A DNA stretch of 48,928 nt from Atopobium sp. oral taxon 810 str. F0209. GTDB taxonomy: Bacteria > Actinomycetota > Coriobacteriia > Coriobacteriales > Atopobiaceae. Position 1 is the first letter of the stretch. Every line of letters starts with the position of its first letter. Location: contig NZ_KE952954.1 of assembly GCF_000466405.1 (NCBI RefSeq), positions 5,886 through 54,813 on the forward strand, in the 5' to 3' direction. The notes under the pieces were generated by a model that worked only from the letters and a program-made list of their open reading frames with translations, ran no database searches and was not told the DNA's origin. Below, piece by piece: positions 1-48,928 of the stretch. Position numbers and translations under genes: made by a program.

Positions 1-66
1 TCTTCAGCCGTTTGGTACGCTTTTGAACCGTTTGCATTAAATGGAACATAACGGGTTCAGAAAGCG
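1..66 (-). repeat. Dispersed GGTTCA/TGAACC repeat, single junction copy
   Basis: Read on the minus strand this stretch shows a TGAACCCGTT block, then TTTAATGCAAACGGTTCAAA, then GCGTACCAA. The same order and spacing occurs on the plus strand near 48800-48855. The two half-sites (TTGAACC at 23-29, GGTTCA at 54-59) start 31 bp apart. The copy lies 3' of the PEP carboxylase gene. The rest of 1-164 holds no gene that I can support. Repeat identity is seen directly; function is unknown. Confidence 0.75.
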
Positions 67-146
67 CCTGCACCAAGCAAACCACTGCAGCCTCAACCTC
101 AGCAGGAACGCCCACGGAGCAGACGTGAGCGCAGCTATCGCACTCG

Positions 147-27611: not shown

Positions 27612-27665
27612 TTAATGAGGTTCACGATTCTCCCCCGACAGCGGAAAGGGTTCACGTTTCACCAG
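27612..27665 (-). repeat. Pair of GTGAACC repeat units, 30-bp spacing
   Basis: GGTTCACGATTC (from 27619) and GGTTCACGTTTC (from 27649) start 30 bp apart. Read on the minus strand the units begin GTGAACCCTTTCCGC and GTGAACCTCATT; close relatives occur at 42.86-42.99 kb. They lie in the 240-bp gap between the oppA terminator and rnhA, where no gene is seen. Confidence 0.65.
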
Positions 27666-27683
27666 CAGGGCAGGTAACACACC

Positions 27684-27714
27684 AAAAAAGGCGACCGCCC
27701 GAAGGCAGCCGCCT
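27684..27714 (-). terminator. Rho-independent terminator of oppA
   Basis: On the minus strand an 11-bp stem with two G-U pairs is closed by a TTCG tetraloop and followed by six T. It lies ~50 bp after the oppA stop. Confidence 0.92.
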
Positions 27715-42849: not shown

Positions 42850-43020
42850 GGGTCGAAAACGGTTCACGATTCATCAGCTCCATCGGAATTCGGTTCACGA
42901 TTCATCATTGACCAAAAAATTTTCCAGGCCTTTTGTGAAGCCAAACGTGGAAAAGGAACCCTTTCCGAGTGGGATGATGAAAGAGGAACCCTCTTCCCAA
43001 ATGGGGCAGTGAATGAGGAG
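42850..43020. repeat. GGTTCA/GGAACC units at 30-31-bp spacing
   Basis: GGTTCACGATTCATC occurs at 42861 and 42892 (31 bp apart), and GGAACCCTTTCC / GGAACCCTCTTCC at 42955 and 42985 (30 bp apart). Read on the minus strand the first pair resembles the 27.6-kb units (GTGAACC, then TTCCG, then GAATC). Confidence 0.7.
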
Positions 43021-43056: not shown

Positions 43057-43167
43057 ACTGCCAAAATTTCGATAGATGGTTCGTTTCGATAGATGGTTCA
43101 TCCTTCGGACTTGCGAAAAAAATGACCAGCGGTTTTACGTTTGCTCACTTCGAAGGATGAACCATTT
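43057..43167. repeat. 17-bp direct repeat and perfect 15-bp inverted repeat around GGTTCA
   Basis: TTTCGATAGATGGTTC occurs twice in tandem, 17 bp apart (second GGTTCA at 43095). ATGGTTCATCCTTCG (43093-43107) and its exact inverse complement (43151-43165) flank a 43-bp loop, so the GGTTCA and TGAACC cores start 63 bp apart, close to the 62-bp spacing at the window's right end. Confidence 0.75.
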
Positions 43168-43326
43168 GCGGTTGATATTTGTGGCTTGTGTTTGTGGTGT
43201 GTATCCCACCCGTATTCCAAATAGCGAAACTTGCATGTGTTGGAAAGCATCTTTTCCTCTATCACTTATCGGTTGCACGCCTGCGTATGTGTCAGACCAC
43301 GGCATTTCCCTATACGCTCAGAGCCG

Positions 43327-47069: not shown

Positions 47070-47154
47070 ACATCTAAATACAGTTGGAATCCATGTTCTA
47101 ATGAGGCAACAATAACCCTGTATGTAAGAGTATGAATTGAGGGGAACTTGCCGC

Positions 47155-48555
47155 ATGGCTGAGTACATTACTCTTGGATTGTTCGTCGTAATGCTTTTAG
47201 TCACGCTCACTTCAGGTATCCCCCTTGTTGTATCACTCACAATTGGACTCGTTATCTTTTTGGCATATGGGCTCTTTCGTGGCAACAGCCCTCGTGCACT
47301 TTTTGACATGATCAAGCAGGGCGTATCCAAGGTTCGCCCCGTACTTCTTCTTTTGCTCATCATTGGAGCCATTACCGCAAGCTGGCGTGCAGCAGGTACT
47401 ATTCCAGCTATCGTCTGTCTGTCAACCCAGATTATTTCTCCGCAGCTTTGCTTGGTTGCAATTTTTTTGCTCTGCTCGGCAATGTCAACACTCATGGGCA
47501 CCTCTTTTGGTGCAGCAGCAACAATGGGCGTTGTCTGCATGACCATCGCCCGTACTATGGGTATCAATCCCATGTTTGCTGGCGGCGCAATTTTGGCTGG
47601 AGCCTACTGCGGTGACCGTTGCTCCCCTATGTCATCAAGCGCTTTTATCGTAGCAACCATCACTGATACCGACATTTTTGACAATGTTAAGCGTATGCTG
47701 CGCACGGGCATCGTTCCTTTTGTAGGCAGCTGCGTTCTCTACGTACTGATAGGCATATTCAGTGCAGGCTCGGGCAAGGTCCCCAATGTTTCTGCCGCTT
47801 TTTCGTCAAGTTTTGATATGTCACCTGTGGTCCTGCTTCCCGCTTTTGCCGTTATTGTACTTTCTGCTTTTAAGGTGCGCGTACACAAAACCATGCTGGT
47901 AAGTCTCGCGTTAGCAAGCATTATCTGCGTCTTTGTCCAGGGTATCCCTGTAGGTGAGCTGCCAGCACTTTACTTTGGTGGCTTCCACTCGATTAATCCT
48001 GCCTTGGCACATATGGTTGACGGCGGCGGTATTCACACAATGCTCGAGATTATCACCATCATTGCTATTGCTGGTAGCTACGCAACCATCTTTGAAGGCA
48101 CCGGACTTATTTGCGGTATGCGCGGCATGATCAATAAAATTTCCCAGCGCTATACGCCCTTTGTAAGTGTGCTTATTACCTCGGCGCTGACTGCAATTAT
48201 TAGCTGCGAGCAGACTTTGGCAGTCATGCTAACCCAGCAGCTTTGCAACGATGTCGAAGGCGATGGCTCTGCTCTGGCACTTGACCTGGAAAACAGCGTT
48301 GTGGTGATTTCAGCGCTAGTACCTTGGTCGATTACCTGCGCAGCTATTCTTTCTTTTGTAGGTGCCCCCGCCAGCTGCGTTGTGTGGGCCTTCCTGTTAT
48401 ATCTCATTCCACTGTGGACGCTGCTGCTGTCCTTTAAGTCTCGCAAGGATCCTAACTTCGTTGCCTCGGAAGCGGGACGTTTACTGGGTCTTGCCGAACA
48501 CGATGATGTCCGCCGTGTCCGTGGCACTATAGATGCTCTTCCGAAGGTCGCATAA
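47155..48555 (+). CDS. NhaC-family Na+/H+ antiporter-like transporter
   Basis: A 466-residue membrane protein with about 11-12 hydrophobic segments. Blocks TSFGAAATMGVVCMTIAR and GAYCGDRCSPMSSSAFIVA resemble the conserved core of NhaC antiporters, where Asp and Ser residues bind cations. Related proteins exchange Na+ for H+ or exchange organic acids or amino acids. I chose the ATG at 47155 (GAGGGGAA 8 bases upstream) over a TTG at 47137. It is divergent from lysR. The transported pair is not certain. Confidence 0.85.
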   Translation: MAEYITLGLFVVMLLVTLTSGIPLVVSLTIGLVIFLAYGLFRGNSPRALFDMIKQGVSKVRPVLLLLLIIGAITASWRAAGTIPAIVCLSTQIISPQLCLVAIFLLCSAMSTLMGTSFGAAATMGVVCMTIARTMGINPMFAGGAILAGAYCGDRCSPMSSSAFIVATITDTDIFDNVKRMLRTGIVPFVGSCVLYVLIGIFSAGSGKVPNVSAAFSSSFDMSPVVLLPAFAVIVLSAFKVRVHKTMLVSLALASIICVFVQGIPVGELPALYFGGFHSINPALAHMVDGGGIHTMLEIITIIAIAGSYATIFEGTGLICGMRGMINKISQRYTPFVSVLITSALTAIISCEQTLAVMLTQQLCNDVEGDGSALALDLENSVVVISALVPWSITCAAILSFVGAPASCVVWAFLLYLIPLWTLLLSFKSRKDPNFVASEAGRLLGLAEHDDVRRVRGTIDALPKVA

Positions 48556-48614: not shown

Positions 48615-48928
48615 GCAAACGGTTCAAAACCGTCGCTCTGCTTCCACAAAAGCACTGCTCACTTTTTTGCTGCGGATGCTTATTGAACCCGTTGTATAGC
48701 ATTTCTCACAAGCGGTTCAAAAGCGTACCAAATGACTCGAGAAATCCCAGGTAAAAATTGTCGCAAGGGTGTTTATTGAACCGCCTGCGGGTAAAAGGGC
48801 GTTTCTTGAACCCGTTGTCTTCCCTTTAATGCAGACGGTTCAAAACCGTACCAAGTGCGCGAGAAAAGCCCTGATAAAAATTGCCGCAAGGGTGCTTTTT
48901 GAACCCGATGTGGGTTGAAAGGCGCTTA
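48615..48928 (+). repeat. Array of GGTTCAA/TTGAACC half-sites at 31/62-bp spacing
   Basis: Half-sites start at 48621 (GGTTCAA), 48683 (TTGAACC), 48714 (GGTTCAA), 48776 and 48806 (TTGAACC), 48837 (GGTTCAA) and 48899 (TTGAACC). The intervals are 62, 31, 62, 30, 31 and 62 bp. Intervening sequence is partly shared too: the stretch with GATAAAAATTGCCGCAAGGG after the 48837 site matches GGTAAAAATTGTCGCAAGGG after 48714, and CGTACCAA follows two of the GGTTCAA sites. It begins 60 bp after the antiporter stop and runs off the window end. No gene is seen in 48556-48928. Confidence 0.85.

Follow-up and report, generated by a model that had tools for sequence, protein, structure and literature searches.

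The current view makes REP-like repeats dependent on HUH transposases, and for some REP classes no enzyme is known (PMC3733652). In the promoters of their own genes, the AbiEi antitoxin and Rv2827c bind inverted repeats of 23 bp; AbiEi binds as monomers and bends DNA (PMC7319586). The homing endonuclease I-Bth0305I forms a dimer on its target, which measures nearly 60 bp (PMC3943268), close in length to the 62-bp repeat unit described here. This unit belongs to a phased repeat system that is nuclease-associated and extends across Coriobacteriales-like genomes and beyond. In the present genome and in many relatives, arrays of such repeats lie on both sides of predicted nuclease genes, which suggests an undescribed selfish repeat-and-nuclease system. 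A literature search for the protein pair or for such repeats found no paper; this is weak evidence, since subscription papers were mostly outside its scope.

The window array and family A

The window, meaning the whole analysed stretch of 48,928 nucleotides, corresponds to C22:5886-54813; the genome comprises 38 contigs and 1.95 Mb in total. GGTTCAA/TTGAACC 7-mers occur ten times in these 48.9 kb, and seven of the ten fall within the 300 bp of one array, assigned here to family A (Table 1). The earlier note had described seven half-sites at the window end separated by one or two steps of about 31 bp; all seven were found again, with intervals of exactly 62, 31, 62, 30, 31 and 62 bp. The array runs past 48928 into a 10-N assembly gap, beyond which the same repeat appears again, and several other contigs likewise end in family A arrays. 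The repeats thus break the assembly.

Table 1. Positions of repeats and of the neighbouring gene in the window (> and <, the two half-site orientations)
Feature	Position	Strand	Details
Family A array	48615..48928	+	> 62 < 31 > 62 < 30 < 31 > 62 <
GGTTCAA half-sites	48621, 48714, 48837		
TTGAACC half-sites	48683, 48776, 48806, 48899		
Unit 2 central core	48747..48753	+	CCCAGGT, then AAAAATTG; centre of 62-bp unit
Unit 3 central core	48869..48879	+	CCCTGATAAAA; same place in 62-bp unit as other A copies
End of second family A array	1..76	.	genome C22:5635-5961; BLAST match C22:5694-5961
Family B element	43070..43171	+	ATGGTTC at 43076 and 43093, core AAAATGACCAGCGGTTTT, inverted site 43158
Probable C-like further family	42861..42910	+	GGTTCACGATTCATC twice, 31 bp apart, by eye
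Na+/H+ antiporter family gene (PF03553)	47137..48555	+	L043:623-2041; array 3' of gene

A BLAST search with the window array located family A arrays at about 36 separate places in the genome. The family is thus amplified and dispersed, as one of the two suggestions made for this locus (a tandemly amplified element) had implied. Over all array loci, distances between neighbouring half-sites comprised 35 cases of ><62, 26 of <>31, 31 of <<30 and seven of >>30, and whole-genome pattern scans with free gaps gave the same 62/31/30 peaks, against 0, 0 and 1 hits for reversed control patterns. An absence of the 31- and 62-bp peaks, or matches to a known IS or REP family, would have refuted the idea; the peaks are present, the Rfam search returned no relevant match for the repeats, and no REP transposase was found in the genome.

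Copies recovered by the family A profile are 98% identical at the half-sites versus 73% in the spacers, with an arm consensus of about RCAnnCGGTTCAAnA, and several columns at the centre of the 62-bp unit are near-invariant among 95 profile hits. Each core combines one of a few left halves with one of a few right halves, a mosaic pattern that points to recombination among the copies. By our own count over mechanically called ORFs, 13 of the 26 clear array places are convergent, 11 codirectional and two divergent intergenic regions. Dozens of arrays carry no gene, and these lie mostly 3' of genes.

Two other origins were rejected. A tRNA T-loop (GGTTCAA resembles GGTTCRA) fails in that the flanks keep no T-stem and the arms vary among families, and an RNA hairpin fails in that left and right arms do not co-vary (by eye) and a single stem would not explain the direct copies at whole-turn steps. 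Elsewhere in the GTDB genomes, the exact A pattern gave only two chance-like hits, and sparse >62< matches in other genera look like chance or tRNA pairs.

The sister species (G004) lacks most family A arrays, and many of its orthologous intergenic regions are empty or hold a degenerate site or a single unit. One array is common to both species (C34:97.6 kb in the present genome, G000, and 1168 kb in G004), so family A predates their split and has expanded, or been kept, in the present species. At another G004 locus (L080, G004:C2 ~1.372 Mb), a degenerate family A array is immediately adjoined by Type I-E-like CRISPR repeats (CTCCCCGCGCACGCGGGGATAATCCC).

Related families, core and helical phasing

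At least two further families in the genome, B and D, follow the same plan with different arm sequences: arm sites of ~18-25 bp inverted around a conserved centre, with extra arm copies at whole-turn steps. Family B, found in the pattern scans through >62< pairs with unrelated spacers, has the arm AGATGGTTCrTnnyTCGA, the centre AAAATCTGACCTGCGGTTTT and an inverted site, and its inverted arms, like those of family A, lie 62 bp apart. A sequence profile found at least 30 copies in the present genome and about as many in G004, some of them at orthologous places; in 1.2 Mb of G004 the sites are arranged as >>31 (12), <<31 (6) and >< at one fixed distance (13). Family D, present in both species, has CCAAAMGCCACRYTCTRTTTCA arms and the core GCGCAGGTAGATTTTTT; its inner steps measure 31 bp and its outer steps 41 bp. 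More repeat families with ~30-31-bp steps stand near CAGG-type cores at window positions 42861-43010 and 27619-27690 and at L166 1292-1450 (GGTTCACGATTCATC; AAAAGGGTTCCT); no cognate nuclease gene was identified for the GGTTCACGATTCATC and AAAAGGGTTCCT families. A truncated family B array also occurs in another genus (L167, G058:C13 143.1 kb), beside a tRNA gene and an Abi-like ORF, which suggests horizontal transfer.

The core AAAACCGCAGGTCAGATTTTT, allowing up to two mismatches, was present in 21 of 399 relatives from 15 genera, while the reversed control gave 0 hits. It lies mostly between locus-specific inverted arms of 20-37 bp, which score 15-27 against shuffle maxima of about 8-12. These arms differ between genera and their copies are lineage-specific; G063, G088 and even the same-genus G003 have arm families of their own. 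No core was found in viral contigs. Core matches at L197, L201, L204 and L214 and weak profile matches in G066 lack significant inverted arms and were put down to chance, to tRNA terminators or to one-off cases. A possible pairing between the core and the 16S rRNA 3' end (a 10-nt match, ACCTGCGGTT) was likewise discounted as probably chance, since the core varies there.

Same-orientation arm spacings in nine families amount to 20, 30-31, 41, 50-51 and 60-62 bp. Their best period is 10.35 bp; the nine modal spacings give a vector length of 0.94 and the distinct spacings one of 0.79, and none of 4000 random sets fitted as well. The other suggestion made for this array, a protein that binds one face of the helix, gains support from this ladder, which fits whole helical turns across the nine families. 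We accordingly read the arms as bound on one face of the helix, an inference for which there are no binding data.

A predicted nuclease gene between the repeats

The gene for P0001, a protein of 332 aa, lies between two family A arrays, beyond which its neighbours are SRP54 and a SpoU methylase; no AbiEii nucleotidyltransferase toxin gene was seen next to it. Two B elements flank paralog 2, which is 57% identical to P0001, and two D elements flank paralog 3. Bracketing was scored as repeats common to a gene's two flanks, with a cut-off of 40 bits. Of 53 homologous genes examined across Actinomycetota, 36 are bracketed, against none of 139 control places (0/120 random places in G004 and 0/19 loci of other genera); the other 17 have no bracketing repeat at the cut-off used. 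The first set gave 21 of 28 loci, and the new loci 14 of 24, made up of 7/14 within the order and 7/10 in other actinobacterial families. In a Collinsella aerofaciens record, which supplies the one remaining bracketed locus, a gene annotated as 'hypothetical protein' has four copies of a palindromic unit on one side and two on the other. Some bracketing elements show no obvious CAGGT core. The link between arm similarity and protein similarity is weak (Mantel r 0.24, p 0.001), with a rank correlation of zero; the two most similar repeat pairs come from pairs of closely related proteins (68% and 61% identity).

Two further observations concern these genes and their elements. Eight sampled genomes of 5-6 Mb from one actinobacterial genus, g159 (G434, G468, G488, G537, G697, G729, G743 and G756), each carry at least five AbiEi-nuclease homologs. 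In G010 (L236 2560-2830), many copies of GCACCCACACGG at a 20-bp step lengthen one of the bracketing elements.

A Pfam search with P0001 alone gave no match, and homologs gave only weak AbiEi_4 matches, in 4 of 27. An AF2 model of P0001 (pLDDT 91.9) places residues 4-204 close to the AbiEi antitoxin (6y8q, Z 9.2 over 181 residues), and in the same model residues 209-321 resemble the I-Bth0305I catalytic domain (3r3p, Z 10.0, rmsd 2.6 over 93 residues) as well as NGO0050 (Z 8.4). P0001 is accordingly predicted, from modelled structure, to join an AbiEi-type winged helix to a Vsr/EDxHD homing-endonuclease-like domain. Residues E212, D245, E259 and K265 do not vary among 27 sequences, and mean identity is 46% in the nuclease part versus 29% in the winged helix, a difference that a constant core and variable arms would lead one to expect.

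Comparison with G004 bears on the history of the gene units. A 2.3 kb insert relative to G004 consists of array, gene and array (the P0001 unit), and the 1590 bp unit of paralog 2 is absent from G004, which has 43 bp in its place. Both gene units checked therefore have empty sites in G004, and this fits either gain or loss. No target-site duplication, one mark of a MITE or insertion sequence, is visible at the G004 empty sites, although the intergenic flanks are too diverged to be sure. No nuclease homolog was found in G004 at E <= 0.001, despite its many B and D elements, so that elements can outlive or lack the enzyme.

Proposed system, rival readings and relation to known systems

We consider it probable, with clear reservations, that the window array consists of cognate sites of a sequence-specific nuclease, within a REP/RAYT-like repeat-plus-nuclease system. 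The repeats, their architecture and phasing, the bracketing and the fold prediction are established, and with them the association of array and gene; binding, cutting and mobility are inferred. The winged helix would bind the arms on one face of the helix, two or more monomers may meet across the unit centre (by analogy with the DNA-bending AbiEi monomers), and the nuclease domains would act at the core. Repair or recombination after cutting could then copy the gene-plus-arrays unit, and arrays alone, to new intergenic places. Arrays without a gene, that of the window included, would be dispersed sites or relics, growing by duplication and mosaic exchange. A wider proposal is put forward tentatively, as a possibility that we do not yet expect to hold: a new Actinomycetota-wide class of selfish element, in which a dsDNA-binding AbiEi-Vsr nuclease cuts a constant core and a fast-changing winged helix reads the arms. 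If this is true, target specificity could switch while the cleavage site stays unchanged.

The elements might instead be operators of an AbiEi-like autoregulator or defence nuclease that only represses its own gene through the arms, with gene-less copies spread by ordinary recombination or serving to hold the nuclease in check, as decoys or 'self' sites. The promoter repeats bound by AbiEi and Rv2827c (PMC7319586) and the AbiEi-like N-terminal two thirds of the model agree with this. Operators alone, however, do not account for repeats downstream as well as upstream of the gene at 36 of 53 loci, for the dozens of gene-less arrays situated mostly 3' of genes, or for a conserved core at the element centre, and we regard this explanation as unlikely. 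Passive structural sites for a nucleoid protein or gyrase, or an RNA hairpin or terminator, kept for chromosome structure or mRNA ends, would suit the placement of the 26 clear arrays, and E. coli offers a parallel in BIME-1, which binds IHF, and BIME-2, which binds gyrase (PMC2817692). Yet the arm sequences change completely between genera, with lineage-specific copies, the paired left and right changes expected of an RNA stem are not seen by eye, and direct copies stand at whole-turn steps; such a role seems quite improbable.

An element of the REP/BIME type, moved by a Y1 (HUH) REP-associated or other unseen transposase, with the nuclease gene a passenger or a user of the arrays as a landing place, would share the extragenic position, many copies, alternating orientation and mosaic units of REP/BIME (PMC2817692). 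We give it very little credence: no PF01797 match for such a transposase was obtained in this genome, although control genomes give matches; the GTAG/CGTC tag is absent from the arm consensus of families A (RCAnnCGGTTCAAnA) and B (AGATGGTTCrnnnyTCGA); and the bracketed gene is repeatedly one for an AbiEi-Vsr protein, across families. The preferred reading, arrays as cognate sites of the bracketed nuclease, is testable at once, since for each paralog the genome supplies a separate set of predicted sites. It would explain abundant actinobacterial 'hypothetical' AbiEi-like nuclease genes and would supply natural pairs of winged helix and cognate site for learning DNA-recognition rules.

Several described systems share parts of this design. 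The AbiE type IV toxin-antitoxin proteins AbiEi and Rv2827c have the AbiEi-like winged helix with a C-terminal domain and bind inverted repeats of ~23 bp, four in tandem for Rv2827c (PMC7319586). Here, in contrast, a nuclease domain is predicted to be fused to the winged helix, P0001 has no visible AbiEii toxin beside it, and the repeats stand on both sides of the gene and throughout the genome. The EDxHD homing endonuclease I-Bth0305I has a catalytic fold like the one predicted here and a long dimer target of ~60 bp. In contrast to EDxHD and free-standing homing endonuclease genes, the present gene encodes a DNA-binding part that is AbiEi-like in the model, is bracketed by arrays in intergenic places instead of lying inside a conserved host gene, and is accompanied by numerous gene-less arrays. 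In E. coli BIME-1 (RIB/RIP), too, palindromic units stand in inverted orientation on either side of a protein site (PMC2817692); this central site is one for IHF, whereas the elements described here have a 20-bp core of unknown partner and unrelated arms.

The broadest likeness is to REP/BIME and RAYT systems (REPtrons, TIRtrons, REPINs), in which an enzyme gene is flanked on both sides by its repeats and dispersed extragenic copies show alternating orientation, species-specific repeat sequence and mosaic clusters (PMC2817692, PMC3733652). The enzyme here is unrelated, with a predicted AbiEi winged helix and Vsr/EDxHD-like nuclease in place of an HUH Y1 domain, and the arms are set at whole-turn spacing around a conserved core. 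The system works like a REP-RAYT system, yet by the tests made it is not a member of the REP-RAYT family. It connects phased interspersed repeats with a second family of enzymes, unrelated to the HUH transposases.
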